Source of the DNA: Candidatus Contendibacter sp.
Lineage (GTDB): Bacteria > Pseudomonadota > Gammaproteobacteria > Competibacterales > Competibacteraceae
NCBI GenBank assembly: GCA_008933795.1
Contig: WBUJ01000006.1
Location: 1 to 61,569, forward strand
DNA length: 61,569 nucleotides
Reading direction: 5' to 3'
The number at the start of each line of letters is the position of its first letter. The first letter of the stretch is position 1. Under the pieces are notes generated by a model that was not told where the DNA came from, made no database searches, and saw only the letters and a list, made by a program, of their open reading frames with translations. Of this stretch, positions 13,761 to 57,754 are shown one piece after another. Made by a program: the position numbers and the translations under genes.

Positions 13761-13870
13761 GATGCGCTGGCCTATTTCTTCAATCGGGACTGAATCGCCC
13801 ACTCTGTCATCACCCTGTCAACTTCGTGCGTTAAATTTCAGGCAATTCAATTGCTTGAAGTTTTACACCC

Positions 13871-14185: not shown

Positions 14186-14232
14186 AATCGCTTAACCCGA
14201 CCGAACCCAACTCTTCAGACGGGGGACGCCCG

Positions 14233-14851: not shown

Positions 14852-15895
14852 GTGAACACATTTTTACCAGCCGCGATCTTCGCGCTATCGGCCAGCCTCG
14901 CCTGCATCGCCCCCGCCTCAGCGGAAGACATGCGGTTGACCGGTTCCGGCGCCAGCTTTCCGTTCCCGCTGTACTCCTCCTGGTTCAAGGACTTCAGCAA
15001 GCAGTCGCAAGGGATCACCGTTGACTACCAGGCCAAGGGCAGCGGCGCCGGCATTCAGGACTTCATCAACAACACCGTCGATTTCGCCGCCAGCGACGCG
15101 GCCATGGATGACGCGGATATCGCCAAGGTCAAGCAGGGCGTCGTGCTGCTGCCGATGACCGCCGGCGAAATTGTACTGTCCTACAACCTTGCTGGCGTCA
15201 ATGAGTTGAAGCTACCGCGCGAGGTGTACGTGGCTATCTTCATGGGCGCGATTGCAAAGTGGAATGATCCGAAAATTGTCGCCGCCAACCCCGGCGTCAA
15301 GCTCCCCGACCAGAACATCACAGTCGTGGCCCGTTCCGACTCCAGCGGCACCACCTACGTGTTCACCGACCACCTGAGCGCGGTGAGTGCGGCGTTCAAG
15401 AGCACCGTCGGTCAGGGCACGACCGTGCAGTGGCCTAAAAATGTGGTGAAGGCGCCGAAGAACGACGGCGTCACCGCCACCATCAAACAGACCCCCGGCG
15501 CCATCGGCTACATCGAGTACGGCTACGCCATCGCCACCAAACAGCCGATGGCCATCCTGCAGAACAAGGCCGGCCAGTTCGTTGCGCCCAGCGATGAATC
15601 CGGCAAGGCGGCGCTGGCCAGCGCCGAATTCCCCACCAAAACCCTGCCGGGTTCCGATGCGCCTGACCTGCGCGTTTGGGTCTCCGACCCCGCCGGCGAA
15701 ATGGCCTACCCCATCGCCACCTTCACCTGGATGCTGTTCTACAAGGATCAGGACGACGCGAAAGCCAAGGTGCTGCGCGATATGGTCGAGTACAGCCTGA
15801 CCAAGGGTCAGACGATGGCGCCGAAGATGGGCTACATTCCCTTGCCCGATAGCGTTGTCGCCCGGGTCAGGAAAGCCGTCGCGCTGATCCAGTAA
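14852..15895 (+). CDS. pstS: Phosphate ABC transporter substrate-binding protein PstS (copy 1)
   Basis: LTGSGASFPFPLYSSWF, DFAASDAAMDDADI, VARSDSSGTTYVFTDHLS motifs; signal peptide. Confidence 0.97.
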   Translation: MNTFLPAAIFALSASLACIAPASAEDMRLTGSGASFPFPLYSSWFKDFSKQSQGITVDYQAKGSGAGIQDFINNTVDFAASDAAMDDADIAKVKQGVVLLPMTAGEIVLSYNLAGVNELKLPREVYVAIFMGAIAKWNDPKIVAANPGVKLPDQNITVVARSDSSGTTYVFTDHLSAVSAAFKSTVGQGTTVQWPKNVVKAPKNDGVTATIKQTPGAIGYIEYGYAIATKQPMAILQNKAGQFVAPSDESGKAALASAEFPTKTLPGSDAPDLRVWVSDPAGEMAYPIATFTWMLFYKDQDDAKAKVLRDMVEYSLTKGQTMAPKMGYIPLPDSVVARVRKAVALIQ

Positions 15896-15999
15896 ACCCG
15901 CCCGCCGCTCGAAGCGAACCGGATTCATCGGTTACAACACTGCCGAGGCCCCGCGTTCGCTTCATGCGTTGGCAACACCGAAATATTGATGGGTAAATT

Positions 16000-16977
16000 A
16001 TGGCATCGCATCACTTTGATCATGTTGATCGGTCTGGATCCGTATCCGGCCCGCCGTCCGCCGGCGATTATGTCTTCGACCGGGGATTTCGCGGCGTCGC
16101 CTGGCTCAGCGCCGTGTTCATTCTGGCGCTGGTGGTTTACATCGTCATCGAGATCGGTGGCAAAGCGCTGCCGGCGTTCTCTGAATACGGCTTCGGCTTC
16201 CTGACGTCGACGACCTGGAATGTTCAGACCGGGCAGTTCGGCATTCTCCCAGAGATTTGGGGCACTCTTTATAGTTCGCTGCTGGCCTTGATTATCGGCG
16301 GCGTCTTCGGTGTCGCCATCGCCATTTTCCTGACCCAGGATTTTCTGCATGGACACCTGGCTGCGGTCTTCCGCACCATCATCGAGTTGCTGGCCGCTAT
16401 TCCTTCGGTCGTTTACGGCCTCTGGGGCATCTACGTCCTGATCCCGTTGCTGCGCCCGGTGGCGAACTGGCTGCACGGGGAGTTTGGCTTTGTTCCTTTT
16501 TTCGGCACCTCGCTCAGCGGTCCGGGTCTCGGTCCCGCCGCGCTGGTGCTGGCCATCATGATCCTGCCGACTGTAGCGTCCATCTCGGTCGATGCGCTGC
16601 ATCAGGTTCCCTACAAGGTCAAGGAAGCGGCCTATGGCATGGGGACCACGCGCTGGGAGGCGATCCTCAAGGTGATGCTGCCGACCGCTGGTTCCGGCAT
16701 CCTCGCCGCCCTGGTGTTGGGATTTGGCCGCGCCCTCGGCGAAACCATGGCGCTCGCCATGTTGATCGGCAATTCCAATCAGATCAGCCTGTCGCTGTTC
16801 TCCCCCGCCAACACCCTGGCCGCGCTGCTGGCGTCGAGCTTCCCCGAGGCCGGTCCGGTTGAGGTCCGCGCCCTCATGTATGCCGCCTTGGTGCTGCTAG
16901 CCATCACCCTGATCGTCAACGCCATCGGCTTGGCGGTAATGAAATTCGCCACCCGGAAATTCGAGGCCGAACGATGA
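16000..16977 (+). CDS. pstC: Phosphate ABC transporter permease PstC
   Basis: PSVVYGLWGIYVLIPLLRP and EAAYGMGTTRWEAILKVMLPTAGSGI; position in pst operon. Confidence 0.96.
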   Translation: MASHHFDHVDRSGSVSGPPSAGDYVFDRGFRGVAWLSAVFILALVVYIVIEIGGKALPAFSEYGFGFLTSTTWNVQTGQFGILPEIWGTLYSSLLALIIGGVFGVAIAIFLTQDFLHGHLAAVFRTIIELLAAIPSVVYGLWGIYVLIPLLRPVANWLHGEFGFVPFFGTSLSGPGLGPAALVLAIMILPTVASISVDALHQVPYKVKEAAYGMGTTRWEAILKVMLPTAGSGILAALVLGFGRALGETMALAMLIGNSNQISLSLFSPANTLAALLASSFPEAGPVEVRALMYAALVLLAITLIVNAIGLAVMKFATRKFEAER

Positions 16978-17894
16978 GTGAGCCTAATCTGACCGCTACC
17001 GCTGCATTGATCGCCTTGGGCGCTTCAGAGGCTCCGCGCAGTCTGCCCAACCTCAATCGTGCGCCCTTCGAGATCCGGGCGCTTAAGAGCGGATTCCTGA
17101 CCGCGCTCACCTGGATCGCAGCCCTTCTCGCCAGTGTGCCGCTGTTCTCGGTCATCTACCGGTTGGCCATCGAGGGCGGCTCGCGCCTGGACTGGGAGGC
17201 GCTGACCGCACTTCCACCTTCCGCTTTTGAGCAGGGGGGCGGTTTCGGCAACGCCATTGTGGGCACGCTGGTTATGGTCGGCCTCGCCACGTTGATGAGT
17301 GTGCCGATTGGCATCTTCGCCGCTATCTATCTGGCGATTCTCGATCCCGACAGCCGATTGGCGCACAGCGTGCGCTTTTTGTCCAAAGCGTTGACAGGCT
17401 TTCCTTCCATCCTGGCTGGCGTGTTCGTCTACGCCGTCCTGGTGGTCACCATGAAAACCTACTCGGCGCTGGCCGGTGGGGTCGCGCTGGCGGTGCTGAT
17501 GTTGCCGACCGTGGTGCTGGCCGCAGAGCAGGCCATGATGATGGTGCCAAAGAAGATGAAGGACGCCGCCTTTGGCATGGGCTGCACCCGCGCGCAGGTG
17601 ATCTGGAAGGTGGTGCTGCCCACTGGCGCGCCGGGCATCCTGACCGGCGTGATGCTGGCGATTGCCGGCGCTGCCGGAAACTCCGCGCCGCTGTTATTCA
17701 CCGCGCTGTTCAGCGGCTACTACCTGACCAGCCTGACCGAGCCGACCGCCTCTTTAGCCATTCTGATCTTCAACTTTTCGGGTATGCCCTACGACAACCA
17801 GATCGAACTCGCCTGGGCGGCATCACTGGTGCTGGTGATGGTTGTCCTGGTGTTCAACATCCTCGCCCGCATCATCGGGCGCCAGAAACACTAA
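16974..17894 (+). CDS. pstA: Phosphate ABC transporter permease PstA
   Basis: [43 protein letters not shown]; overlaps pstC by 4 nt. Confidence 0.96.
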
Positions 17895-17916
17895 GGCTTT
17901 TTCGAGGCTATCAAAC

Positions 17917-18747
17917 ATGAATGCAACACCGGAAATGACGGCGGCTGGCGCCGCGTCCGCCAGCGCGCCCACCGGCGCCATTGTGATGAATTGCCAGATC
18001 GACAGGGTCTTTTACGGCGATTTTCTCGCCGTGCGCGCCAGCACGGTACCGATAGAGAAGAACAAGATCACCGGCTTCATCGGTCCCTCCGGCTGCGGCA
18101 AAAGCACGGTGCTGCGCAGCCTCAACCGCATGAACGACCTGATCCCGATCTTCCGTTTTGAGGGCAAGGTGACCTATCACGGTCAGGACATCTACGACCG
18201 GAAAGTCGATCCCGTGGTGGTGCGCCGCTATATCGGGATGGTGTTCCAGCAGCCCAACCCGTTTGCGATGAGCATCTATGACAACGTCGCCTTCGGTCTA
18301 CGCCTGAACGGCTTCAAGGGCAACCTGGACGAGCGGGTGGAGAAGGCTCTTAAAGGCGCGGCCTGCTGGAACGAGGTCAAGGACAAGCTGAAAAACAGCG
18401 GGTTGTCGCTGTCCGGCGGTCAGCAACAGCGGCTGTGCATCGCCCGCGCCATCGCCACCGAACCCGATGTGCTGCTGATGGACGAACCCTGTTCGGCGCT
18501 GGATCCGATTGCGACCCGACGGGTCGAGGAGCTGATGCTTGAACTCAAGGAAAAATACACCATCGCGCTGGTCACCCATAACATGCAGCAGGCTACGCGG
18601 GTTGCCGATACGACCGCGTTTTTTGGGGTGGATATCTCCCAGGGCAGTCGAACCGGCTATCTGGTGGAAATGGGACCGACCCGGCAGATTTTCGAGGATC
18701 CCCAGCAGAAATTGACCGGGGAATACGTCCGGGGCGAATTCAGTTGA
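17917..18747 (+). CDS. pstB: Phosphate ABC transporter ATP-binding protein PstB
   Basis: Walker [48 protein letters not shown]. Confidence 0.97.
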
Positions 18748-19832
18748 TGCCGAAAGGAAGGAAGATGGCTACTCGATTCTTACTGGCCGCCGCAATCGCC
18801 ACCCTCGGGTTCATCGGTCTGATTCCCGCAGTTCAGGCCCAGACCGCAGCGCCCACGGCCACCGTTGCCAGCGGCCCAGTCGCTTTGCGCGGCGCCGGAG
18901 CGACTTTCCCCGCCCCGCTCTACCAAAAATGGATTGATGTTTACACCAAAGCGAACCCAACCCTTGCCATTGAGTATAAGGTTGTCGGCAGCGGCGAAGG
19001 CGTCAAGCGGTTTCTGGAGAACTCGGTTGATTTTGGCGCCAGCGATGCGGCGCTCAGCGATGAGCAGATAGCCAAGGCGCCGGGGGGCGCCACCCTGGTT
19101 CCGGCTACGGCCGGCGCCATCGTTCTCGCCTATAACCTGCCGGACGTGAAAGGCGTGCTGAAACTGAGCCGGGAGGTTTATGCCGACATTTTCCTTGGCA
19201 AGATCCGCAACTGGAACGATCCGAAAATCCAGGTGCTCAACCCGGATATCAAACTGCCGAACCTGACCATTACCCTGGTGGCCCGCCAGGACAGCAGTGG
19301 CGCCACCTACGCGATGACCAACCATCTAAGCGCGATCAGCGCGGCATGGCGCAATCAAGGCCCGGGCGTGGGCAAGGTGATTGACTGGCCGGGTATTTCC
19401 ATGGTCGCTCCGGGCAACGAAGGCGTCGCCGGCCGCATCAAGCGGAGTTGGGGATCGATCGGCTACGTGGAATATGGCTTCGCCAAGCGACTCGGATTAC
19501 CGATGGCTCACTTGGAAAACAAAGCGGGTGTTTTCGTAGAACCCAACCTGAACAGCGGTCAGGCGACGCTGGCCGCCAATGTCAGCCAGATACCGGGCAA
19601 CCTGCGGGTTTTTCTGCCTGACCCCGATGGCGAAAACTCGTATCCGATAGTCACCTTCACCTGGCTGCTGTTGTATGACCGCTATCCGAATCCACAGAAA
19701 AGTGCGACGCTCAAGGGATTCGTGAACTGGGCGCTGAGCGATGGACAGGGTTACAGCATTGATCAGGGCTATATCCCCTTGCCTGAAAACGTGGCAACGC
19801 TCGCCCGCGCGGCGGTGAATCGTGTGCAGTAA
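18744..19832 (+). CDS. pstS: Second phosphate-binding protein PstS (copy 2)
   Basis: [58 protein letters not shown]; overlaps pstB stop. Confidence 0.96.
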
Positions 19833-41193: not shown

Positions 41194-41197
41194 AACC

Positions 41198-42019
41198 ATG
41201 GGGTCTCCAAGATTCCGTTCCCTGTGGATCTCCGACGTTCATCTCGGCTTCAAGGAATGCAAGGCCGAGTATCTGCTCGATTTTCTGCGCCAGAGCGACT
41301 GCGAGCGGCTGTATCTGGTGGGCGATCTGATCGACTTTTGGAGCCTGCGCAAGGGTGGGCGCTGGCCGGCGGCGCATGGCGAGGTATTGAAGCTCATTTT
41401 GGCCAAGGCACGGGCTGGGACCCGGGTGGTTTACATCCCCGGCAACCACGACGAAGTGGCGCGCGATTATCTCGGTCTGCGGGTGGGCGACATCGAAATC
41501 GCTTCGGAGGCGATTCACGTCACCGCCGACGGTCGCCGCTTCCTGGTCACCCACGGCGACGAGTGCGACAGCGCGGTCCGCTGCGGCGGGCCGCTGCTCA
41601 ACTGGCTGGGCGACGGGGCCTACGAACTGCTGCTGTTCCTCGACCGTTGGTACAACGGCTGGCGGCGGCGCTGGAACCATCCCTACTGGTCGCTGGCCAG
41701 TTTCCTCAAGCAGCGCATCGGCCGGGCCACCGCCTACATCGCCCGCTTCGAGGCGGCGGCGGCTCACGAGGCGGCGCGGCGCGGATTGGGCGGTGTGATC
41801 TGTGGCCATATCCATCACGCCGCACTGCGCGATCTCAATGGGGTGTTGTACTGCAACGACGGCGATTGGGTGGAGAGCTGCACCGCGCTGGCGGAACACG
41901 CCGACGGGGCGCTGGAAATCCTGCGCTGGACCCATCAGCAGGCAGCGGTAGTGGCGATTCGGGAGCCGCGCCGCTTGCTGGAAACGCCGCCGGTTCCGGG
42001 ATGGGCAACCGGTTTGTAA
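41198..42019 (+). CDS. PlcP-/LpxH-like metallophosphoesterase
   Basis: RSLWISDVHLGFKECKAEYLLDFLRQSDCERLYLVGDLIDFW, YIPGNHDEVARD, VTHGDECD, GHIHHA. Confidence 0.88.
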   Translation: MGSPRFRSLWISDVHLGFKECKAEYLLDFLRQSDCERLYLVGDLIDFWSLRKGGRWPAAHGEVLKLILAKARAGTRVVYIPGNHDEVARDYLGLRVGDIEIASEAIHVTADGRRFLVTHGDECDSAVRCGGPLLNWLGDGAYELLLFLDRWYNGWRRRWNHPYWSLASFLKQRIGRATAYIARFEAAAAHEAARRGLGGVICGHIHHAALRDLNGVLYCNDGDWVESCTALAEHADGALEILRWTHQQAAVVAIREPRRLLETPPVPGWATGL

Positions 42020-42364: not shown

Positions 42365-44065
42365 TCAACAACCCCGCCACGCCTGGGTGCGCCGGTGCAG
42401 CCAGCGGCTCGATCCGGCGTGTAGCAGCCGCACCGCGCCGGCGGTGAACACGATCAGCATCGCCATCGCCGCCGCCGGGGCGGTATCGCCCGCATCGTCC
42501 ATGTTCAGCACCGCCACTGAAGCCAGCGTGGTGGCCGGCGAATAGAGGAAAACCACCGCCGACACCGTGGTCATGGCGTTGACGAAGAAATAGATGGCGA
42601 TGTCGAGAATCGCTGGCAGGCACATCGGCGCCGTCACCCGCCACGCAGTGCGATAGAACGGGGTCTTGAGCGAGGCCGACACCGACTCGAACTCCGGATC
42701 GAGTTGCTTGAGCGCGGTCAGCGCGGTGAGGTGGCTTACGGTATAGAAATGGGCGATGGTGGCCAGCACCAGGATCGCCATGCTGCCATACAGAAAATTC
42801 AACGGATTACCGGGCGCATTGAAAAAGAAGATATAGGCCAGCCCCAGCACCATCCCCGGCACCGCCATCGGGATCAGCGCCAGCAGATGCGTCGCCGTCC
42901 GCAGCGGCTTCGCGATTCGGGTTTTCTCCACCAGATAGGCGCCGCTGAAGACCACCAGACTGCCTAACACGGCGGTGTAAAACGCCATCTCAATCGAGTT
43001 GCCGTAAGCCGTCCAACTGCCGCCATCGGCGGTGTTGAAGTCGTAATGGCGCAGGGTCAGGCTGAGATCGTAGGGCCACAGCTTGGCCAGCGAGGCGAAA
43101 GCGGCCATGCCCAGGATGCCCAGAATCACCAGCGCCACCAGACTCACCAAGCCGAGCAGCGCCAGATCGCGAACCGGACGCGGCTTGGGGTGATAGGGGA
43201 CCGCGCGGCTAGACACGGCGGAACTCTGCCGGCTTTGCGCCCAGCGCTCGACGAAGAAGGCGACGACGGCGGGCAACAACAAAATCAACGATACCACCGC
43301 GCCCATCTGGAAGTTCTGCTGCCCCACCACCTGTTTGTAGATATCGGTGGCCAGCATGTTGAATTGACCGCCGATCACCTTGGGGACACCGAAGTCGGTG
43401 ATCACTAGGGTAAAGACCACGAAGATGGCGCTGATCAGACCGTAGCGCGCGCCCGGTAGAGTGACCGTGGCGAATGTGCGCCAGCGGCTGGCCCCCAGGG
43501 ACTCCGAGGCTTCATATAACCGCGCATCGGCGGTGGACAGAGCGGTGATCAGAATGATCAGGGCATGCGGGAAGGTCCAGAACACCGAACCCAAGACGAT
43601 GCCGATCGGGCCGTAGATGCTCTCGCCGAACAACCAACCCTTCAGCGCGCCCTGGTTCCCGAACAGGTAGATCAATGCGATAGCCGATAGCAGCGATGGC
43701 GCCAGCAACGGGGCCATCGCCACCAACCGGAAGAATCCCTTGAAGGGAATGCAACCACGGGTCAGGGCGTAGGCGTAACCAAACGCCAGCGCGATCACGA
43801 TCAGCGTGGCCAGCGCTGATACCCACAAGCTGTGGCCGATCGCGCCGGTCAGGGCGGGATTAGTGAAGTATTTGATAAAATTGGCCAAGCTGACAAAGAC
43901 GCCATCGCGATCCTGCATGCTTTTCGCCAGCATGATGACTAGCGGAACGAGCAAGGTGATGGCTAGATACAGCGCCAGCACGCATAACCCGCCCCCCATC
44001 AGCCATTCATCGCGGCTCAAGCGCGGGCGGATGCGCGGCGGCGCCAGCACCGCCGCTTCAGCCAT
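42365..44065 (-). CDS. Putative 2-aminoethylphosphonate ABC transporter permease (two BPD_transp_1 domains)
   Basis: Two permease modules (SLGASRWRTFATVTLPGARYG; SASLKTPFYRTAWRVTAPMCLPAI); AEP assignment from phnW/phnX context. Confidence 0.82.
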   Translation of the reverse strand: MAEAAVLAPPRIRPRLSRDEWLMGGGLCVLALYLAITLLVPLVIMLAKSMQDRDGVFVSLANFIKYFTNPALTGAIGHSLWVSALATLIVIALAFGYAYALTRGCIPFKGFFRLVAMAPLLAPSLLSAIALIYLFGNQGALKGWLFGESIYGPIGIVLGSVFWTFPHALIILITALSTADARLYEASESLGASRWRTFATVTLPGARYGLISAIFVVFTLVITDFGVPKVIGGQFNMLATDIYKQVVGQQNFQMGAVVSLILLLPAVVAFFVERWAQSRQSSAVSSRAVPYHPKPRPVRDLALLGLVSLVALVILGILGMAAFASLAKLWPYDLSLTLRHYDFNTADGGSWTAYGNSIEMAFYTAVLGSLVVFSGAYLVEKTRIAKPLRTATHLLALIPMAVPGMVLGLAYIFFFNAPGNPLNFLYGSMAILVLATIAHFYTVSHLTALTALKQLDPEFESVSASLKTPFYRTAWRVTAPMCLPAILDIAIYFFVNAMTTVSAVVFLYSPATTLASVAVLNMDDAGDTAPAAAMAMLIVFTAGAVRLLHAGSSRWLHRRTQAWRGC

Positions 44066-45143
44066 GGGAGTACCCCTCGGGGAACAAGCGGATGTGTTCG
44101 GCGGGAATGTGCAAGTGCGTGGAATCGCGCGGGCGCAAGTCCAGTTCCCGCGCCCGCTGACTGGGCAACTGCGCTCGCAGCCGATGCTCGCCTAATTCTC
44201 CACCGCTCAGGCTCAACCAGAAAAACGGCCCCATGAATTCGAGATCCCGTACTTCGGCACGAAAGCTGTTGGCGTGGCCGTTGGTTCGCCCCGTACAGAC
44301 CACATCTTCGGGACGCACGGCTGCCTGCACCGCCGTGCCTGGCGCAAACCCATTCACCGTGCAGGCCAGCCGCGTTTGGCCCAGTTGAATTTCGCCCTGT
44401 TGTACCAGCAGGGCGGGTAAGAGGTTCATGGCGCCGATGAACTCGGCCACGAACAGGGAAGCCGGTTGGTGATAAATCTCCAGGGGCGTGCCGATCTGCT
44501 CGATTTTGCCGGCGCGCATGACCACGATGCGGTCGGCCATGCTGATGGCCTCTTCCTGATCGTGCGTGATCATGATGGTGGTGATGCCCAAGCGCCGTCG
44601 CAGCGCCTTGATCTCATCGCGCAGATAAACCCGCACCTTGGCGTCCAGCGCCGATAGCGGTTCGTCGAGCAACAGCAGACCCGGGGACACGGCCAGCGCC
44701 CGGGCCAGCGCCACCCGCTGTTGCTGGCCACCGGACAGTTGCGAAGGATACTTGTTCCCGCTGTCGGGCAAACCGATCAGCTCCAGCAACTCCTGGACTC
44801 GTCGCCGAATCGCCTCCTTGGGTTGCTTGCGATTCTCCAAACCGTAAGCGATGTTCCGGGCAACGGTGAGATTCTGGAACAACGCATAGGATTGAAACAC
44901 GATGCCGAAATCGCGCTTCGCCGGCGGCAGGGCGGAAATATCGTGGCCGTTCTGCTCCACCGTGCCATGAGTTTGAATATCCAGCCCGGAAATGGCCCGC
45001 AGCAGGGTGGTTTTGCCGCAGCCGGAGGGGCCAAGAAAACAGACGAACTCACCTTGGTAAAGGTCAATACTGACATCGTCCAGCGCGGTGAAATCGCCAA
45101 AGCGTTTGGTGAGATTGCGGACACGGAGATAGGGGGTGGTCAT
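44058..45143 (-). CDS. Putative 2-aminoethylphosphonate ABC transporter ATP-binding protein
   Basis: [50 protein letters not shown]-terminal TOBE-like segment. Confidence 0.88.
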   Translation of the reverse strand: MTTPYLRVRNLTKRFGDFTALDDVSIDLYQGEFVCFLGPSGCGKTTLLRAISGLDIQTHGTVEQNGHDISALPPAKRDFGIVFQSYALFQNLTVARNIAYGLENRKQPKEAIRRRVQELLELIGLPDSGNKYPSQLSGGQQQRVALARALAVSPGLLLLDEPLSALDAKVRVYLRDEIKALRRRLGITTIMITHDQEEAISMADRIVVMRAGKIEQIGTPLEIYHQPASLFVAEFIGAMNLLPALLVQQGEIQLGQTRLACTVNGFAPGTAVQAAVRPEDVVCTGRTNGHANSFRAEVRDLEFMGPFFWLSLSGGELGEHRLRAQLPSQRARELDLRPRDSTHLHIPAEHIRLFPEGYSHG

Positions 45144-45221
45144 GACTGGCTCAACTTGGCGAGTGGATTTTCCTCTCCCGTCAGGAGAGTACGGCTATAA
45201 GTTCCCCTCAGAATCCCCTCC

Positions 45222-45338
45222 CCTCTTGTGGGGGAGGGCCGGGGTGGAGGGTAAAAAAACGCGACTCAAGCCGTGATTTCAGTCTGAAGGCTTTGCTACC
45301 CCCATCCCCACCTTCCCCCGCAAGAGGGGAAGGAGTTC
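45222..45338. repeat. Inverted-repeat intergenic element (CCCCTCTTG[T/C]GGGGGA termini)
   Basis: Arms CCCCTCCCCTCTTGTGGGGGAGGGCCGGGGTGGAGGGTA and reverse complement of CTACCCCCATCCCCACCTTCCCCCGCAAGAGGGGAAGGAG. Confidence 0.7.
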
Positions 45339-45341
45339 GAA

Positions 45342-46358
45342 TTACTTCTTCGGCTCCGACTTGCCGTCGTAGCGCTTGGCCCATTCGGCCAGGATCGCCT
45401 CGCGGTGCTTGGCGGCCCACTCGAAATCGTTCTTGATCATCTTGCTGGAGATGCCTTCGGGATAGTGAGGCACCGGTTTGGCGACGCCGGGCATGGCGAC
45501 CACCGCATAACCTTCGCTGTACATCTCATTGGCCTTGCGGGTCACCGACCAGTCGGCCAACTGCTTGGCGGCTTCCAGCTTCTTGGTATTCTTGACGATG
45601 GCGAAGGACTCCAAATCCCAGCCCACGCCTTCTTTCGGCGCGATCACTTCGATGGGAGCGCCCTTGCTCTTTTCCTGCGCGCCGCGATAGGCGAAGGAGA
45701 TGCCGACCGGAATTTCGCCGGCGGCGGCCATCTTGCAGGGCTTGGAGCCGGAGTGGGTGTATTGGGCGATGTTGTCGTGTAGGGCGTCCATGTATTTCCA
45801 GGCTTTTTCCTCGCCCCACATCTGAATCCAAGCCGACACGTCAAGGAAGCCGGTGCCAGACGAGCTGGGATTGGGCATGACCACCTTGCCATTGAATTCC
45901 GGCTTGGTCAGGTCTTGCCAGGAAGCCGGCGTGGGCAGCTTGTTTTTTTCGGCTTCGACGGTGTTGAAGCAGAGCGAGGCGACCCAGACACGCTGGCCGA
46001 CCCACTGCGATGGTTTGGCGCTATCCACATACTTTTGATCCAACGCTTCCACGCCCTTGGGGGCGTAGGGCTGGAAATAACCCTGATCGGCCAACAGCTT
46101 GAGGCTGGTCACCGCCAGGCCCCACACGACGTCGGCTTGCGGGTTGGCTTTTTCGGCCAGCAGCTTGGCGGTGATGATGCCGGTAGAATCGCGCACCCAC
46201 TGGATGTCCAGGTCGGGGTAGTCGGCCTCGATGGCCGTTTTGAACTTGGCGAGTTCGTCGGCCTCGACCGCGGTGTAGACCAGCAATTCGGTTTTGGCGT
46301 GCAGGGAAAAAGCGGCGCCGGCCAGGACCAGCGCACCGAACACGGTGACGAACTTCAT
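45342..46358 (-). CDS. Putative 2-aminoethylphosphonate ABC transporter substrate-binding protein
   Basis: Signal peptide; ELLVYTAVEADELAKFKTAIEADYPDLDIQWVRDSTGIITAKLLAEKANPQADVVWGL (Fe/phosphonate SBP type). Confidence 0.85.
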   Translation of the reverse strand: MKFVTVFGALVLAGAAFSLHAKTELLVYTAVEADELAKFKTAIEADYPDLDIQWVRDSTGIITAKLLAEKANPQADVVWGLAVTSLKLLADQGYFQPYAPKGVEALDQKYVDSAKPSQWVGQRVWVASLCFNTVEAEKNKLPTPASWQDLTKPEFNGKVVMPNPSSSGTGFLDVSAWIQMWGEEKAWKYMDALHDNIAQYTHSGSKPCKMAAAGEIPVGISFAYRGAQEKSKGAPIEVIAPKEGVGWDLESFAIVKNTKKLEAAKQLADWSVTRKANEMYSEGYAVVAMPGVAKPVPHYPEGISSKMIKNDFEWAAKHREAILAEWAKRYDGKSEPKK

Positions 46359-46477
46359 CGGGAATCCTCGCGTGGGGCGGAAAGACGAGCGACGTCGTTT
46401 CGAAGAAACGATCCAGCGCTCGATGGCAAAAATGGATTGTGCGACGACTCTATTGCGGACCTATTGCGGAATTGTGA

Positions 46478-46858
46478 TCAGCCCGAGACTTTGCCCGAGC
46501 GTGTCCGTTCGCAGCGTTGACGGAATTCCGGGCCGAACGGACCGATGACGCCAATCAGCGGCTGCCGTTCGCGCATCTCCCACAACCGCTGCAACGTCCG
46601 TTCCCTCTGGCGGCGGGCGTTCTCCACCAGTCCCTCGTCCTCGATGATATCCAGCGTAGTCAGGGCAGCCCGGCAAGTGACCGGGTTCTTTTCATGGGTG
46701 TAGTGACCGAAAGCCCAGGCGCCGCCGACATCGAGATCGGCGCGGGCCAGCACCGCCGCAATAGGCAACACGCCGCCGCCCAGCGCCTTGCCAGGCTTGG
46801 CGCCGCGCTGAGAAATTGACCTCGCTTTCTCCGCGCATGGAACGTCCCGGGGTTTCAC
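46478..46858 (-). pseudogene. Truncated class-III aminotransferase-type PLP enzyme, possibly PbfA-like
   Basis: GKALGGGVLPIAAVLARADLDVGGAWAFGHYTHEKNPVTCRAALTTLDIIEDEGLVENARRQ; N-terminal two thirds and C-terminal end missing. Confidence 0.7.
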
Positions 46859-47689
46859 TCAAGGCCGTTCCCCGCGCGCCAGCCGCCGTTCAATCAGCTC
46901 GATGTAGGGCAGCAGGTCGGCGATGGTATCGATGACGTAGTGTGCCCCGCTGGCCCGCAGCCGGGTATAGGCGGCGACGCGGCGGCGCTGTTGCTCCGCC
47001 GGGGTCAGCGCCTCCCAGTCGTCCAGCGCCAAGCCGACCTCGTTGCCGGACACCGCCACTGCAATCGTCCACATCCCGGCATTCAAGCCTTCCTCGATGC
47101 CCGGCGCAGTGTCGTCCACCTTGACGCAGGCATGGAGGGTTTCCACTTCCAGCTCGATAGCGTTTTTCAGGCTCATGTGCGGGAACGGCCGCCCGCGCGG
47201 AACCTCGGTGGCGCATGCGCTGCTGTCGGGGCGATAGCCCTGGTCGGCGGCGGCTTGCGCCAGCGTCTCCAGCATTTCCCGGCTGTAGCCGGTATTGGCG
47301 CCGATGCGAATGCCGCGCCCGCGCAGGGCGGCCACCACTTCCCGGCAACGCGGAATCAGTTGCGCCGAGTCGCGGATAGCGGTCACTTGCAGGGGCACGA
47401 ATTCCCGGTACAGCCGGTCGATGGTGGCCTCGTCCGGGGATTCGCCGTACCGATTGCGCCAAGCAGCGGCAATGCGGGGCAAGGCGCACAACTGGCGGAT
47501 ATGCTCGCGCTTCTCGGCGCCCATCGGCCCTCGGGCTTCATCCAGGCCGAGGTCGATTCCCTGCGCGGCGAACAGGCGAGTGAAGGCCGCCACCGGAGCC
47601 AGCGAGCCGAAGTCCACGGTGGTGCCGGCCCAGTCGAAAATCACCGCCTGAACCGGACCGCGATAGCTGCGCTGATAGTGGAAGTTCAT
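46859..47689 (-). CDS. phnX: Phosphonoacetaldehyde hydrolase
   Basis: VQAVIFDWAGTTVDFGSLAPVAAFTRLFAAQGI, MGAEKREHIRQL, VKVDDTAPGIEEGLNAGMWTIAV. Confidence 0.96.
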   Translation of the reverse strand: MNFHYQRSYRGPVQAVIFDWAGTTVDFGSLAPVAAFTRLFAAQGIDLGLDEARGPMGAEKREHIRQLCALPRIAAAWRNRYGESPDEATIDRLYREFVPLQVTAIRDSAQLIPRCREVVAALRGRGIRIGANTGYSREMLETLAQAAADQGYRPDSSACATEVPRGRPFPHMSLKNAIELEVETLHACVKVDDTAPGIEEGLNAGMWTIAVAVSGNEVGLALDDWEALTPAEQQRRRVAAYTRLRASGAHYVIDTIADLLPYIELIERRLARGERP

Positions 47690-47701
47690 GGGCAGGGCTC
47701 C

Positions 47702-48850
47702 TCAAAATTCGACCGGGTTGAGATCCTCGGGGCGCGGCGCTCCATCGGCGATGCCCATGGCATCCAACGCCGTCCGCACCGCCGCCAGCACCCCCCGCAT
47801 CTGTTCGGCGAACAACTGCCCGATGCAGCCGATTCGGAAGCTCTCCACCGCGGTGAGCTTGCCGGGATAGATGATGAAACCCTGGTCCTTGATCAGCCGG
47901 TAGAAGGTCGAGAAGTCGAAGCGGGAATCACTGGGGGAATGAAAGGTGACGATGATCGGCGACAACCAACGATCCGCCAGCAGGGTGTGGAATCCCATCG
48001 CCCGCATTCCCGCCACCAGTAAGTCGCGGTTGGCGGTGTAGCGGGCCAGTCGTCCGGCCACGCCGCCCTCCGCCTCATGCTCCGTCAGCGCCTGGGCGAA
48101 GGCGGCGACTACATGGGTCGGCGGGGTGAAGCGCCACTGCCCGGTGCGGGCCATGTAGGTCCACTGGTCGTACAGATCCAGACTGAGGGAATGGGCGTTG
48201 CCGGCGCACCGTTCCAACACCTCCCGGCGGATCAGGGCAAAACCGAATCCGGGGACGCCCTCGAAACACTTGTTGGCGGAGGCGACGACGGCGTCGCACG
48301 GCAATCCGCGGGCGTCGCACGGCAAGGCCCCGAAGGCGCTCATGGCGTCGATGAGCAAGCGCCGTCCGCGCCGCGCCACCACCTCAGCGATTTCCTCGAC
48401 GGGATTGAGAATTCCGGAGGAGGTTTCGCAATGCACCACCGCAACGTGGGTGATGGCGGAATCGCCGGCGAGGATTTCATCCACCCGGTTCGGCGGTGGC
48501 GGCAGGTAATCGCCCATGTCCAGTGTGACGCAGGGGCGGCCCAGATAGTGGAGGATTTTGGCCATCCGCTGGCCGTAGGCGCCGTTCATCAGCACCAGCG
48601 CCTTCCCGGCGCGGGGGATCAGCGTCGCCAGCGTGGCTTCGACCGCGTAGGTGCCGCTGCCTTGTAGGGGAACGCAGACGCAGTGGTCCTCCGCGTGCGC
48701 CGCCTGGAGCAGACGCTGGCAAATATCGGAGGTCAGGTCGTTGAAATCGCTGTCCCAAGAACCCCAGTCGCGCAGCATCGCCTGCTTGGTGGTGAGTGAG
48801 GTGGTCAGAGGACCAGGGGTAAGTAGATAGGGCTCGCGAGATTTGTTCAT
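47702..48850 (-). CDS. phnW: 2-aminoethylphosphonate--pyruvate transaminase
   Basis: [70 protein letters not shown]. Confidence 0.97.
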
Positions 48851-50742: not shown

Positions 50743-51564
50743 TCAGGTCCACAGCGCGCGAACGCCGAAATAGGCGATATCCTTAAAGCGGCGCAGCGCG
50801 CCCTTGAGAAGCGAGGTTTGTGGCCGGGTACAGAAGGTCATGCTGAGCATGATCCGCAACTCGTTTTCCGCCAACCGCGTGACCTTGTGAAAGACCCGCG
50901 CGCCTTCGAATACGATCAGCGTGTTGGGCGGGGTGGGTATCGTCACCTCGCGGTCGTCTTGGCGGACCACCAGTTGCGCCGAGGACAGGCGATCTTCCTG
51001 AAAATGACGGTTGACCAGGGGCAGCAGCACGGTAAAGTGGCGCCCGTTATAGAAGTTGTAATCGTAATGCCAACCGATGTGATCGCGGGGTCGGTTGTAG
51101 AGCAGCAGCGAACAAGAGCTTTGATCGTTGATCGGCGTGGGCAATACCGGCTCGCCGATCACCGCCGAGCACAGCCGGTGTAGATAATCGGATTGATAGA
51201 AGGCGACGATTTCGGGGGCAATCCGGTGCAGATCCTCGTAGGCGATGGTCCCGCCCTGCTTGTGGGCCGGGAAATAGCTGCGCTCGGTCTGTTCGCGGCG
51301 CAGCGCGGCTGTGCGCAGCCGGTCAAAAGCCGATTTCGGCAACGGCTCGGGCACCACGGCGAGGCGTTGCCGAAAATTGGGCAGCGCCGACGGTAGGTAG
51401 TCGGGCAGGCTCAGCGCGGCGCCATACCGAATGACGAAATCGCGCTGGCGAGCCAGTAACTGACGATACTGGCGTTGCTTGCGCAACTTGAGGCCGGTGA
51501 AGGCCAGCACGCCAGCGGCTGGGATCAACAGAATTTCCGGTCGCATGAGCGGTTTCGATGGCAA
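50743..51564 (-). CDS. 2-oxoglutarate/Fe(II)-dependent oxygenase-like protein
   Basis: IGWHYDYNFYNGRHFTVLLPLVN (HxD) and FEGARVFHKVTRLAENELRIMLSM (distal His/Arg). Confidence 0.75.
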   Translation of the reverse strand: MPSKPLMRPEILLIPAAGVLAFTGLKLRKQRQYRQLLARQRDFVIRYGAALSLPDYLPSALPNFRQRLAVVPEPLPKSAFDRLRTAALRREQTERSYFPAHKQGGTIAYEDLHRIAPEIVAFYQSDYLHRLCSAVIGEPVLPTPINDQSSCSLLLYNRPRDHIGWHYDYNFYNGRHFTVLLPLVNRHFQEDRLSSAQLVVRQDDREVTIPTPPNTLIVFEGARVFHKVTRLAENELRIMLSMTFCTRPQTSLLKGALRRFKDIAYFGVRALWT

Positions 51565-52358: not shown

Positions 52359-52547
52359 CGACCATAAAACCCTTATTTATCAATTAAAAAGGGACTTTAT
52401 CGTTGAAACGCTGCAAGCGTATGACAATGGGAAGACGGTTTTTGGTCATGCGCGGCGTGATCGACAGCCGGTGGTAGCAACCCGGAAACCGTCGCTTGCC
52501 GAAGAAGCTGGCGGTTCCGCGGGATGGGCGATGGATTGAACTAACCG

Positions 52548-54602
52548 TTAACCACCGGGCGCCGATTCGAACCGCAACGGCTCGACCAGCAGCGGCACGT
52601 ACTCCGGAAAATAGGTTCCACCGGCTTCGAAGGGTTTGTCGGGATCGATGAGCGTTTTCGCGTTGCCCACGCCATAGGTGATCGAAGCGGGATTTTCTAG
52701 ATCTACCGGCCGGTCGGCGACCACCTCGCCGATCTGGTAGGGCTGGCCATCCTGATGATCGAACCCTTCCTCGCCTTCCCGGAAATAGCGGAAGGTTACC
52801 GGCGTGGCTGGGAAGACGTCCTTGCCCTGGACGTAGCGTTGGGTGACGACCACCTGCCGATAACGGCGAGCAGCGGCCAAGGCCTCGCTTTGGGGCGGAT
52901 ACAGCCACTCGCCGCGAATCATACCCTCGGCGGTCAGATAGCCGCCCCGCGCGGTCAGCTCGCGCAGCAGCGTTTGCCGCAAGGTCTGACTCCGCTGGAA
53001 GCCGGCCGCGCTCGCGGTATCCAGCGCCGGCCAGGCGGCGGAATAACCGTGGGCGGGCTGGATCGCGCGGGCTAGAAAGCGTTCGATGGCGGCGGGCATG
53101 TCGCCATACAGGCTCGCGCCGACCACGTTGTCGAGAAAATGGCGGAACTCCCCCTTCGCCAGTTCCCGGTTCACCGGATCGCCCAGTTGCGCCTGGCCGG
53201 GAGTGGCGTCGGGCGGGGCGTCGGGGTGGGCGAGATAGCGCAGGGTGTCCATTTCCCGCCAGTCCAACTCACCCGGAAACTTGCGCGGCAGCGACCAGGT
53301 GGAATCCACCGTATTGCCGACTCCGGAGGTGAACTGGGGGAATTCGGTGCTGGCGACGCCGCTGTGGCAGCCGATGCACTGGGCCAGTTCCTCGCGGTTC
53401 TGTGGCCGTAATGCTCCGCTGGCATCTTCGATGTAGCCGGCCAGAGTCCAGCCCACCCCGTTGTCCACCCAGCCTTGCGCGTCGTTGCCGTACACCGGCG
53501 CGCCCTCTTCCTTGGTTCCAGGCCGGAACTGGCTCGGATAAAACGATTTCCACTTGTACATGTAGCGGATTTCCTTGACCCGGCGGGCGCGCGTGCCGGG
53601 ATAGGGACTCACCGCCAGATCGTTCCCATCCGCCGCCACGTCCACGTAGTGCAGGGGATGGGCGAATTCCGTCCCAACCGGATACAGGCCGCGTTCGAGG
53701 GCCACCGTCCGGGCCGCGCCCTGATAGAACGCGCCATCTTCAGGACGCAAGCGATCCTGAATCGCCCGCTCCAGCAGGTCGAGATTCCGGGCATAAACCG
53801 TCCGGTCAAAACTGCCGTCCTCGCGTTGCATGAACGGCTTCGGCAGACGGAGGTAGATGCCGGATACCGAGCCGGTCATCGGGGTGAAAATGCCGTAGGG
53901 CATGAAATTCACCGCCCGCCAGCCGGTGATCCAGCGCCCGGCGCCGTCCTGGAACCAGCCGTTGCGCGGCATGCTGGAACGGACAAAGCCATCGCTGTCG
54001 GCGGGCAAATCCGCCGGGTCCAGCCCCGGAAACAGCCGGAACGGCGCATCGCCGTCTCCACCGTCCCAGGCGCGCGGGTCGCCGGGACGCTGCTGGAAAG
54101 CGGCCCGCCAGTTGTCTTCGCGAATGTAGGTCTCCATGTCCCACATTTGCGGATCGACCCCCAGCACGGCGACGGCTTCGCGCAACTTCTCCGGCGTCAG
54201 GGTGTTTTCCCAGGGATTGCGGCTCGGGGATGCAGTGAACGGGCTAATGGGCGTAAACGAATATTCGAGTTGCAGGTTGCCGAGTCGCGGCTCCGCGCCC
54301 GCCTGCGGGAAGTTGTTGCCCAGCCCCAGGCGATAGACGCCGTTGGTGTGGCAGAACAGGCAGGCGTTTTGCGTGCCCCGCGAGGTCTCGATATGGCACT
54401 GGGCGGGAATGTGGGCGTAGGGATTGGTAAAGGTCAGCGGGCTGCGGAAATCGCCCTGCGGAAAGCGGGGAGCGGCGGACGGGAGTTTTGCGTGGGCCGG
54501 CTGTTCATCCACCCGACCCTGGCTGTCGCTGCAACCCGCCAGCGCCACGCCCAACAGGAGGGCCGCCGTGACCCCATTTAAACTTTGCTGGCGACGATTC
54601 AT
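52548..54602 (-). CDS. Diheme c-type cytochrome lipoprotein
   Basis: Lipobox LAGC; two CxxCH sites CLFCH and CIGCH; start at 54602 (MNRRQQS). Confidence 0.82.
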   Translation of the reverse strand: MNRRQQSLNGVTAALLLGVALAGCSDSQGRVDEQPAHAKLPSAAPRFPQGDFRSPLTFTNPYAHIPAQCHIETSRGTQNACLFCHTNGVYRLGLGNNFPQAGAEPRLGNLQLEYSFTPISPFTASPSRNPWENTLTPEKLREAVAVLGVDPQMWDMETYIREDNWRAAFQQRPGDPRAWDGGDGDAPFRLFPGLDPADLPADSDGFVRSSMPRNGWFQDGAGRWITGWRAVNFMPYGIFTPMTGSVSGIYLRLPKPFMQREDGSFDRTVYARNLDLLERAIQDRLRPEDGAFYQGAARTVALERGLYPVGTEFAHPLHYVDVAADGNDLAVSPYPGTRARRVKEIRYMYKWKSFYPSQFRPGTKEEGAPVYGNDAQGWVDNGVGWTLAGYIEDASGALRPQNREELAQCIGCHSGVASTEFPQFTSGVGNTVDSTWSLPRKFPGELDWREMDTLRYLAHPDAPPDATPGQAQLGDPVNRELAKGEFRHFLDNVVGASLYGDMPAAIERFLARAIQPAHGYSAAWPALDTASAAGFQRSQTLRQTLLRELTARGGYLTAEGMIRGEWLYPPQSEALAAARRYRQVVVTQRYVQGKDVFPATPVTFRYFREGEEGFDHQDGQPYQIGEVVADRPVDLENPASITYGVGNAKTLIDPDKPFEAGGTYFPEYVPLLVEPLRFESAPGG

Positions 54603-54672
54603 CCGATGCTCCTCAAACGGAAAAAGCGGGCGGCTGGCAGACGCCCGCTGGTCCATTCTCACGGCAAACCGA

Positions 54673-56532
54673 TCAAAGGCCCGGAATACCCCCGATATAA
54701 CCCACCGGCGCGTCGAACTTGTCGATCAGCGGCGTCAGTTGCTTTTTAAGATCGGCGTTGATCGTGCTCGGAAAATCGCCGTGGTGCTGGGCGTTGCTCA
54801 TGATGTAGGCGTGGCCGTTCAGGTTTTCCACCACCTGCAAACCGGTGGACTCGGCGCCGGCGGTCAGGCTCAGGATGCGAGTCAACCGCTGGGTGTCCAC
54901 GTTGTAGGCCCACACGAAGTTGTTGACGTGCATCCCCGAATCCTCGCCGATGAACAGGGTGCGCATCTTTTCGGAGAAGAACAGGTTGTCGGTGTTGGCG
55001 ATGGCGTTCACATCGGCGGTATTGCCGAACGCGTCGGCGGCGATCGGCTTGCCGAGCAGTTTCGGCTCCACGGACATGCTCGTCGCCACCCAATCGGAAT
55101 TGATGGCGTTGCTCTGGGTATCCTTGATGCCGGCCTTCAATTCCAGGGTATAGGTGGCGCCCGCTTTGTTCTCCGGCAACCGGATGTGGTCGGCGGGTTC
55201 GGTAGGATCCGAGCGCATGCTGGTCTCGATCCGCGACATGGCCATGTACAACTTCTTGTCCTTGGCATTGATCGCCATGCCTTCCATCTTGGTCCATTCG
55301 GTGGTGCCACCGAGCAGGGCAGTGTAGCGGCGGGTTTCCAGGAAGGCGGCGGCTTTCTCCATGCCGGGTTTGAGCGCCAGACATTCATCGGTAGCAGAAC
55401 CGGCGCGCACCCGCTGGTAACCGGTCGGACACTGGCCGTCGCTTGGCGCCACTGCATTGAAAATGTCGTTGAAAGTCAGGCTGTTGGCCAGCGCCCCGAT
55501 CTCGGCGTCGGTGCCGTGACCCAGGCGAATCCAGGTCAGATCGGCGCGGCCGCCGCCCTGATCGCCGGTTTGGTTCCATTTCGCGGTGTAGAGCGTGCCG
55601 GCGGACAGATCGCCGTATTGGTCGGCCACGAACAGCGTCATCTGCACGTAAGCCCCGTCGTCGCCCAGGTAGGCGGTGCGGCCGTCCGGCATGACCAGGG
55701 CCTGTTCCCAGGTGCCCCGCCCCATGGCGTAATGCTTGACCACGCTGGTGGAGCCGTCGGCCTTGACCGTCACTTCGGGAATGATGCCGTAATGATAGGG
55801 GTTCGCCTCGCGCTCGCTCTTGAAATACAACTCGCGCATCGCTTTGAGACCGGCGGTGGTCGTGCCGTAGTTCTTGGAATCGAGCGGGTTGTAGATTAGA
55901 TCGTAGTCTTCCTCGGAACCCAGGTGAGTGTTCCAAGGCGTTTGCGAACCAAAGCAGGGAATCCAGATGCCGTTGACGCCGGAGAAATCAATCGGCCTGA
56001 CCTTGGTAGCGGTCAGCTTGCCGTCGCCGGCCTGGGCGATCTCGCTCAGGGTCATGGACATCGGCATGCGGGTGTACCAGCCCGGCGTGGTAAAGGCCAC
56101 CGCACCGTCGCTCAAAATCCAGTCGTACTCGTAATGCGTCACCAGGAACAGCTTGTTGTCTATCTTCAACAGGCTGTTGGCGTCCGGCGTCTCGGCCACC
56201 ACCGGGTTGCCCATCGGATCGAGCAGCGGTTCCATCCGGTAGTTGTAGAGTTGACCGGCGGGGTATTTTTGGCCTTTGACCTCGGCCACCGGGTCCTTGA
56301 CGCTGAACAGCACGTTGTAGGTCAGGGGCTGCTCTTCCACACGACCGTTGTCGTAGGTCACCTTGGCGACCGATTTCGAGTAGGTCCTGGCTAGTTCGTC
56401 GGTCGTGGCGGGCGCGGGCGTCTCGGTAAATTCCACCGAGCGCACCGCAGCAATCGGATCGTCATCGTCATTACCGCAACCGGCCAGCCCCAGCGCGGAC
56501 AAAAACGCAACCGTCAGCAACCTCGCGTTCAT
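54673..56532 (-). CDS. phoX: PhoX-family (DUF839) phosphatase-like lipoprotein
   Basis: Lipobox LAGC; TPWNTHLGSEED, AYLGDDGAYVQMTLFVADQYGDLSAGTLYTAKW, LFIGEDSGMHVNNFVWAYNVDT. Confidence 0.78.
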   Translation of the reverse strand: MNARLLTVAFLSALGLAGCGNDDDDPIAAVRSVEFTETPAPATTDELARTYSKSVAKVTYDNGRVEEQPLTYNVLFSVKDPVAEVKGQKYPAGQLYNYRMEPLLDPMGNPVVAETPDANSLLKIDNKLFLVTHYEYDWILSDGAVAFTTPGWYTRMPMSMTLSEIAQAGDGKLTATKVRPIDFSGVNGIWIPCFGSQTPWNTHLGSEEDYDLIYNPLDSKNYGTTTAGLKAMRELYFKSEREANPYHYGIIPEVTVKADGSTSVVKHYAMGRGTWEQALVMPDGRTAYLGDDGAYVQMTLFVADQYGDLSAGTLYTAKWNQTGDQGGGRADLTWIRLGHGTDAEIGALANSLTFNDIFNAVAPSDGQCPTGYQRVRAGSATDECLALKPGMEKAAAFLETRRYTALLGGTTEWTKMEGMAINAKDKKLYMAMSRIETSMRSDPTEPADHIRLPENKAGATYTLELKAGIKDTQSNAINSDWVATSMSVEPKLLGKPIAADAFGNTADVNAIANTDNLFFSEKMRTLFIGEDSGMHVNNFVWAYNVDTQRLTRILSLTAGAESTGLQVVENLNGHAYIMSNAQHHGDFPSTINADLKKQLTPLIDKFDAPVGYIGGIPGL

Positions 56533-57199
56533 GGAAAAACTCCCCTAGCGGCGGATTTATTTCAAGCAGTTATCTTGGCGCGCCGCGGTTTCTAAACAAT
56601 GACGGTTAGATGACACTCGTGTTACGGCAGTTAGGGCGTATCGCCACGACCCGAAAAATTCTTCCACCTCCGCATCCAAATCCGAACGCCTCGCGTAGCA
56701 TTCGTGTTGGCCAGGTCATTTCGAACCGGATCGCCTCTCCAACCCAATCGCCATCGCTAGAGGAGTTTTCGTCACGACCGAGACCCCCTTCGACCAGTTT
56801 GCGCTCGCCGCCGCCAGCGCCCGGAGTCGAAAAGGCGCATCCGCCCGATGGCGGGCTGCTGGAAATGGTGGGCTCGAGTCGGAGCGAAGCCGTACTGGTC
56901 TGGCAACGGGCTGGCGCCGTTCGCCAGCGACTGCTCACTTCGGGCAAGCTCGCGCCGTTCGCCGCATTCGTGGCGGAACAACCGCTGGCCGAAGCGACCA
57001 AAACCACCGTGGAACGGGATTTCGCCTTTGAGTTGGCGACCGCGCTGGCCATCCCGTTGACCGATGGCGCGCTCGAACCGCTTATACGGCTTATAATGGA
57101 TCAAACCCGCGAACCCGCAGCGCAAGCCGTGAACGGAGCTTTTACGTTGCCGCTCCTCTACGCTGCGGGTCGAGCTTATGGACTCAGCCAAAACTCGTT

Positions 57200-57754
57200 A
57201 TGGCATCCCGTGATTCGCTGGCCGATCTGCTGGCTCGTTGCGCGCTGCACGACCGACGCGCCTTCGAGATGCTCTACCAACAGGCAGCGCCGACCCTGTA
57301 CGGCTTGCTGCTCAAGCTGACGCGCGACCGCGAACTGGCGGCCGACCTGTTGCAGGAAGGCTTCGCGCGGGTCTGGCAACGGGCCGGCGACTACCGCCCG
57401 CAACTCGGCCAACCGCTCGCTTGGCTGGGTAGCATCGTCCGCCATCTGGCCATCGACCGGCTGCGGCGCGGCGAGCAGCGCCAGCGCACGGAACTGGATG
57501 ATTCTGGGTGGGCGCTGGTGGCCGACGACGGTCCGGGCCCCGAGGATCGGCTGCACGCCGAGCATGGCGACGCGGCGCTCGCCCGTTGTCTGGAAATGCT
57601 GGACCCGGAACCGCGCCGCGCCGTGTTCCTGGCCTACTACGAAGGCTTGACCCACGACTTGATCGCCCGACGGCTGGACCGACCCTTGGGAACGGTCAAG
57701 GCCTGGGTCCGGCGCAGCCTGCAACGCTTGAAAACCTGTCTGGGGGAAACATGA
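57200..57754 (+). CDS. ECF RNA polymerase sigma factor (SigK-like)
   Basis: RDRELAADLLQEGFARVWQRAGDYRPQLGQPLAWLGSIVRHLAIDRLRR; region 4 AVFLAYYEGLTHDLIARRLDRPLGTVKAWVRRSLQRLK. Confidence 0.93.
   Translation: MASRDSLADLLARCALHDRRAFEMLYQQAAPTLYGLLLKLTRDRELAADLLQEGFARVWQRAGDYRPQLGQPLAWLGSIVRHLAIDRLRRGEQRQRTELDDSGWALVADDGPGPEDRLHAEHGDAALARCLEMLDPEPRRAVFLAYYEGLTHDLIARRLDRPLGTVKAWVRRSLQRLKTCLGET

Follow-up and report, generated by a model that had tools for sequence, protein, structure and literature searches.

A PhoX-like lipoprotein and its conserved dihaem cytochrome partner in a predicted phosphate-starvation island of Candidatus Contendibacter sp.

PhoX is among the main enzymes with which bacteria scavenge phosphate, and its need for iron ties the phosphorus cycle to the iron cycle. 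The cofactor of PhoX consists of two Fe(III) and three Ca(II) ions, with a Cys thiolate bound to Fe(III) (PMC4223295). The enzyme is exported by the twin-arginine translocation (Tat) pathway, and insertion of its iron in the cytoplasm has been put forward as a speculation (PMC4223295). The present analysis concerns a stretch of 61,569 nucleotides from Candidatus Contendibacter sp. (contig WBUJ01000006.1, assembly GCA_008933795.1), referred to as the window, in which a gene for a PhoX-like lipoprotein is followed by a gene for a dihaem c-type cytochrome lipoprotein. The two genes may constitute a phosphate-starvation operon, in which an envelope-anchored PhoX-type phosphatase is accompanied by a dedicated dihaem partner that matures the Fe-Ca cofactor or keeps it ferric. 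This proposal is made tentatively, as one that falls somewhat short of probable. No description of a PhoX and cytochrome pair was found in the open-access literature.

The PhoX-like protein and its export

The two genes of the pair are located in the window as follows.

54673..56532, minus strand: PhoX-like lipoprotein gene, 619 aa, upstream member of the pair
52548..54602, minus strand: dihaem c-type cytochrome lipoprotein gene, 684 aa, ATG at 54602, downstream member of the pair

The stop of the PhoX-like gene and the start of the cytochrome gene are separated by 70 nt, and each of the two starts is preceded by a purine-rich Shine-Dalgarno sequence. A preliminary description of this DNA had reported the adjacency, common direction and spacing of the genes, a LAGC lipobox in both proteins and the motifs CLFCH and CIGCH in the cytochrome; all of these were confirmed, the layout from the open reading frames (ORFs) and the lipoboxes at both N-termini. 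The lipobox cysteine is Cys19 in the PhoX-like protein, which carries a signal for the general secretory (Sec) pathway, and Cys24 in the cytochrome.

The PhoX-like protein matches the Pfam family PhoX (PF05787) with 57.8 bits, at a cut-off of 24. The profile of its family had PhoX (3zwu/4amf) as the sole match in the PDB (E 7e-9), and HHalign of the family with canonical Tat-exported PhoX, represented by the 23 of 30 rows retained by a motif filter, gave a probability of 99.4% over 336 columns. The AlphaFold model of the protein (predicted local distance difference test, pLDDT, 91.5) was best matched by Foldseek to PhoX 4a9v (E 4.8e-17, TM-score 0.59/0.63, 17% sequence identity), the runner-up having an E value of 4.2e-6. 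Both the PDB profile and HHalign place Cys179, Glu193/194, Glu273, Asp292 and Glu387 of PhoX on Cys193, Glu207/208, Glu276, Asp292 and Glu417 of the window protein, in a comparison where the N-terminal third lies outside the alignment, and the likeness extends to additional motifs in the C-terminal half. These positions are invariant in 28 diverse members, cytochrome-less ones included, and invariant or nearly so across the superfamily. Cys193, Glu207/Glu208, Glu276, Asp292 and Glu417 are thus predicted to be PhoX-type metal-site residues, the aligned PhoX positions being presumably ligands of the metals. The absence of the PhoX metal ligands, which the preliminary description had named as the observation that would speak against it, was not what was found; the active-site residues are kept, and PhoX is the top match among solved structures. 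Two further residues of PhoX, which we take to bind the substrate, are changed: Arg385 is replaced by Lys415 in the window protein and Lys171 by Gly185, this position being Gly or Ser in the family.

The assignment of the PhoX-like protein as a phosphatase is well supported by the predicted fold, the aligned residues and the genomic context. The earlier suggestion that a protein of this fold may not be a phosphatase has become less likely, since the protein retains these residues of the active site and stands in a phosphate-starvation context; the PhoX fold itself stands. It is highly improbable that the protein is a phosphate- or metal-binding propeller serving the cytochrome, with the latter as the real enzyme. 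The low identity to PhoX, the changes at Arg385 and Lys171 and the extent of the Pfam match, which spans only profile positions 153-450 of 515, would agree with such a role and weigh against a phosphatase. However, no variation of the active-site residues is seen, even among members that lack a cytochrome to serve, and the fold match to PhoX is far above that to other propellers. Because cytochrome-less members keep identical active-site residues, the cytochrome looks accessory to catalysis.

The mode of export sets the family apart from canonical PhoX. A lipobox is present in most members of the PhoX-like family, and a possible twin-arginine motif (RR) was seen in 1 of 41, whereas the canonical PhoX rows bear RR, as judged from motifs. 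This agrees with the earlier view of a PhoX lipoprotein without the usual Tat signal. Across 37 pairs, automatic calling found a lipobox in both proteins of 24 pairs, in neither protein of 5 and in one of the two in 8, so that 29 of 37 agree. Reading the eight discordant N-termini by eye made six of them concordant, raising the agreement to about 35 of 37 pairs, but these calls (LLSAC, LLHGC, MMSC, NAGC, LVGC, SVAC) are manual judgements made after the automatic result was known. Two PhoX-like proteins without an adjoining cytochrome (L169:6460-8493 and L170:6257-8338) bear Tat-like signals, which would fit a swap between Tat export and the cytochrome, in two cases only.

The dihaem cytochrome and the history of the pairing

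The haem motifs of the cytochrome are C81LFCH85 and C409IGCH413, and both are invariant in 17 of 17 rows compared, distant ones included. The single residue Cys69, located 12 residues ahead of the first CxxCH and with no obvious disulfide partner, is likewise invariant in the 17 rows. His315, Arg341, Lys343, Glu344, Arg346 and Lys350 are also invariant, distant members included. Cys69 and His315 are candidate axial haem ligands.

Assignment of the cytochrome to a known family was attempted and rejected, as Pfam, NCBIfam, PDB-profile and fold searches yielded only a weak cytochrome P460 patch. No Pfam or NCBIfam family was above its cut-off, the only lead being cytochrome P460 (19.8 bits, below its cut-off of 27) at residues 365-420; weak matches to P460 (PF16694) recur in 33 of 40 family members. 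HHalign to cytochrome P460 reached 92%, restricted to the region around the second CxxCH and excluding the strand with Lys343 and Lys350. Foldseek of the AlphaFold model (pLDDT 83.8) returned no significant solved fold, the best match being cytochrome c' beta with an E value of 0.3.

The pairing was followed by a contig scan seeded with the cytochrome, which retrieved 80 loci and measures PhoX-like neighbours of the cytochrome, not the reverse. Nearly all loci belong to Gamma- and Betaproteobacteria and Campylobacterota; many are metagenome-assembled genomes (MAGs), and a few oddly labelled ones, such as Phycisphaerales, Desulfosporosinus and Synechococcaceae, may be binning errors. A PhoX-like gene lies immediately upstream on the same strand in 70 of the 80 loci, about 75 of which are testable. 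A contig end truncates five of the remaining ten (L022, L039, L054, L063, L071), L074 is ambiguous, and the PhoX-like neighbour is absent at four (L023, L026, L027, L028). That 70 of the 80 loci have the two genes in identical order indicates that the pairing is more than chance. The preliminary description would have been contradicted by a pairing confined to this genome; the pairing is conserved, diverged relatives included, which also upholds its view of a dedicated diheme partner.

Among more distant matches (200-440 bits) the two genes are often still adjoining (L106, L108, L111, L112, L114, L115, and also L173), always in the order PhoX-like then cytochrome and with two CxxCH motifs in every cytochrome. 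When 204 genomes were drawn evenly from the class, 13 were matched by the cytochrome profile and 21 by the PhoX-like profile. A tree of 46 rows places canonical PhoX in a separate clade. Within the PhoX-like branch the deepest splits hold cytochrome-bearing lineages, and among the PhoX-like rows the state must change four times between cytochrome-bearing and solo. For this count L118 was relabelled from solo to cytochrome-bearing, a judgement made on the grounds that both genes end at contig edges in the expected order. The simplest reading of the tree, limited by root position and sampling, suggests that the association is old and was followed by several losses. The protein distances of the two partners correlate (Mantel r 0.845, null maximum 0.184), as is expected for co-inherited genes; a common species history would alone yield such a value. 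In some Campylobacterota, a divergent second cytochrome copy (about 100 bits) follows the first (L044:10174-11910, L060:9986-11779).

Phosphate-starvation context and type II secretion links

Two sites resembling a Pho box were located around the pair.

56599..56616, minus strand: Pho-box-like direct repeat GTGTCAT-CTAA-CCGTCAT, 12 of 14 positions, 2 mismatches in the window scan
52421..52438, minus strand: weaker Pho-box-like site, 3 mismatches, between the cytochrome gene and the putative esterase gene (52358-51624)

The first site starts 84 nt 5' of the PhoX-like start codon. The window scan, which allowed at most three mismatches, found 7 sites against 3 expected, and 3 of 100 shuffles reached seven; the two best sites are those upstream of pst (13804-13821, 1 mismatch) and of the PhoX-like gene. 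The upstream regions of the related loci were compared first with first-order Markov shuffles and then, more strictly, with the other ORFs that these loci contain. A site with 10 or more of the 14 positions matching stands upstream of 33 of 64 PhoX-like genes (52%), 46 of 480 other ORFs (10%) and 8 of 76 cytochrome genes (10%), a signal that is weaker in Campylobacterota. The Fisher test gave a p value of 2e-14, which overstates independence because the loci are related. A sigma70 promoter was searched for and none was found, a result that is uninformative for a PhoB-type promoter. The pair appears, from these consensus matches, to be under phosphate-starvation control.

The surroundings of the pair contain several groups of phosphorus-related genes.

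42365..48850, minus strand: 2-aminoethylphosphonate transporter (permease, ATPase, binding protein), phnX and phnW, downstream of the pair on the same strand
14852..19832, plus strand: pst phosphate transporter operon with pstS, pstC, pstA, pstB and a second binding protein
37038-38210, minus strand: GT4 glycosyltransferase gene, lipid-remodelling context
39353-40540, plus strand: BtaA-like DUF3419 gene, lipid-remodelling context
41105-41941, plus strand: PlcP-like metallophosphoesterase gene, lipid-remodelling context

The phosphonate genes (TIGR03262, TIGR03265, TIGR03261, TIGR01422, NF010006) and the pst operon (TIGR00975, TIGR02138, TIGR00974, TIGR00972) are above their NCBIfam cut-offs, and the second binding protein belongs to PF12849. 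Judged by these pst, 2-aminoethylphosphonate and lipid-remodelling genes, which were absent from the preliminary description, the window is a phosphate-starvation island. About 20 of 80 relative loci have neighbours of the phoD, 5'-nucleotidase, pst, ols (olsAB), btaA or plcP type, a count read from single-linkage clusters, in which the comparison with families covered representatives only; the clusters labelled PstB and RR were omitted, being mixed with unrelated ABC ATPases and response regulators.

This setting bears on the possibility that the metal site of the PhoX-like protein oxidises phosphite, hypophosphite or a phosphonate to phosphate, with the dihaem cytochrome receiving the electrons. 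Such an oxidoreductase would explain why a cytochrome is dedicated to the protein and why the setting is Pho-regulated; genes for 2-aminoethylphosphonate are situated at a distance of a few kb, and the replacement of Arg385 by Lys with the loss of Lys171 suggests altered substrate handling. However, the core PhoX hydrolase residues are conserved, also in cytochrome-less members, the nearby phosphonate genes form a complete hydrolytic pathway in themselves, and we know of no cytochrome-linked phosphite oxidation by a PhoX fold. This explanation is considered quite unlikely. The wider notion of an electron-coupled extracytoplasmic phosphorus chemistry of the pair, comprising either reduced-phosphorus oxidation or a redox-switched Fe-Ca phosphatase, is unlikely.

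Some loci of the family are also connected with the type II secretion system (T2SS), a link that the preliminary description lacked, as it did the depth of the conservation and the lineages with a solo PhoX-like gene. In Thiothrix lacustris a single ORF encodes the cytochrome and, after it, a GspC-like segment (TIGR01713, 86 bits, below its cut-off of 101.6). At L027 and L028 gspC, gspD and gspE come after the cytochrome, and L037 and L057 have an adjoining T2SS cluster. Cytochromes with a C-terminal extension were observed at L016:7914-10523, where it matches T2SS GspC, L075:7959-10658 and L010:7851-10511; at the last of these, a second PhoX-like gene overlaps the end of the extended cytochrome ORF. 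As these cases are a minority of loci and were picked out while browsing neighbours, without a background rate, the T2SS link to the PhoX-like and cytochrome loci is only suggestive.

Two explanations draw on this link. The cytochrome may be an export, assembly or protective partner (a folding scaffold, a T2SS adaptor or a peroxidase), whose haems take no part in electron exchange with the PhoX-type metal site. The fusion to a GspC-like segment and the T2SS genes nearby would agree with it, and an open haem site could be accommodated in the P460-like patch. A parallel is offered by ElpS of Caulobacter crescentus, a phosphate-starvation surface lipoprotein encoded beside T2SS genes, released in a T2SS-dependent manner and linked to phosphatase activity (PMC2996285). 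Since the fusion and the neighbours are confined to a minority of loci, and both haem motifs are invariant, a partner of this kind is judged unlikely. Alternatively, the cytochrome may reduce Fe(III) minerals or ferric phosphate at the cell surface and thereby release adsorbed phosphate, the organic phosphorus set free being hydrolysed by the PhoX-like protein. Both proteins are lipoproteins, the GspC-like fusion in Thiothrix and the gspC, gspD and gspE genes beside the cytochrome elsewhere are compatible with this role, and iron dissolution is triggered by phosphate limitation in Pseudovibrio (PMC5348524). However, that study points to secreted chelators and does not mention a cytochrome (PMC5348524), just two haems are present in 684 residues, and no porin-cytochrome conduit was noticed beside the cytochrome; mineral reduction is considered very unlikely.

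Other genes near the pair were recorded. A putative esterase gene (PF00756; 51624-52358, minus strand) lies immediately 3' of the cytochrome gene, as it does in Contendobacter L002 (90% identity), and a HalD-like 2-oxoglutarate oxygenase gene (PF23169, 32 bits; 50743-51564, minus strand) stands between it and the phosphonate genes. The start of ORF 14011-14718 resembles the C-terminus of this esterase and is followed by a GNAT acetyltransferase match; the ORF is possibly a fused or decayed esterase copy. Divergent from the PhoX-like gene, an extracytoplasmic function (ECF) sigma factor gene (57200-57754, plus strand) is apparently followed by an anti-sigma-like ORF; its counterpart was not seen in L002.

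Proposed role of the cytochrome and comparison with known systems

The deep pairing and the apparent phosphate-starvation control suggest a redox protein serving a phosphatase, and handling of the metal redox state is the best guess for the function of the cytochrome. Canonical PhoX would gain its Fe-Ca cofactor in the cytoplasm and exit folded via Tat, whereas proteins of the PhoX-like branch would exit unfolded via Sec. After unfolded exit, the two irons would have to be inserted extracytoplasmically as Fe(II) and then oxidised to the Fe(III) that catalyses hydrolysis; re-oxidation could also follow reduction by sulfide or other reductants. The dihaem cytochrome, instead of O2, would accept the electrons from the iron, and the mature phosphatase would free phosphate from organic monoesters for uptake by Pst. 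This role in cofactor oxidation is favoured because two haems face two irons, export is by Sec and habitats are possibly scarce in O2. Electron acceptance without O2 suits the microoxic, sulfidic habitats suggested by many host names.

Several points weigh against cofactor oxidation. The iron of PhoX has been called redox-inactive (PMC4223295). Electron transfer or a complex between the two proteins is hypothetical, and the site 5' of the PhoX-like gene is known as a match to a consensus rather than as a footprint. Comparison of cytochrome-bearing with solo PhoX-like proteins gave no convincing residues separating the two groups, and the changes at Arg385 and Lys171 mean that substrate or chemistry may differ from those of PhoX. 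Several PhoX-like proteins without an adjoining cytochrome are exported by Sec, so the idea that Sec export strictly requires the cytochrome was rejected. The cytochrome equals the enzyme in size and is conserved over deep distances, which may indicate a function of its own. SoxB occurs in about 9 of 13 cytochrome-bearing genomes and in 77 of 191 others, a weak association, and in the host genome no SoxB was over the cut-off; the idea that the cytochrome serves sulfur oxidation specifically, as its electron sink, was therefore rejected.

A branch that dispenses with Tat, is anchored in the envelope and retains its cytochrome partner across deep evolutionary distance would reveal how the assembly or continued activity of an iron phosphatase is achieved in an extracytoplasmic, oxygen-poor setting. 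It raises the question of a coupling between phosphate acquisition and electron transfer, and it offers a functional lead for a family of cytochromes of about 680 residues that no solved fold matches and that occurs in many bacteria whose names mark them as sulfur oxidisers.

Among known systems, cytochrome P460 and cytochrome c' beta (PF16694) share with the cytochrome the W-NG-GW ... CxxCH patch around the second haem, but the match is sub-threshold over about 50 of 684 residues, a second haem motif is present and the overall folds do not match. In Pseudomonas aeruginosa, the Hxc type II secretion system carries the alkaline phosphatase LapA under phosphate starvation. To our knowledge, LapA is not of the PhoX type and has no cytochrome; in the present family the link to type II secretion consists of gene position and fusion only. 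ElpS resembles the family, by description, in being a phosphate-starvation lipoprotein with T2SS gene neighbours and an association with phosphatase (PMC2996285). It differs in being reported as probably no phosphatase itself, and a cytochrome partner was not seen described for it (PMC2996285). Finally, PhoX (PF05787; Pseudomonas fluorescens, PDB 3zwu/4a9v/4alf/4amf) has the propeller fold and core residues in common with the PhoX-like protein, whereas the latter belongs to a separate clade, is a Sec lipoprotein and not a Tat substrate, carries Lys in place of Arg385 and Gly or Ser in place of Lys171, and is accompanied in most members by an adjoining dihaem cytochrome and occasionally by links to type II secretion.

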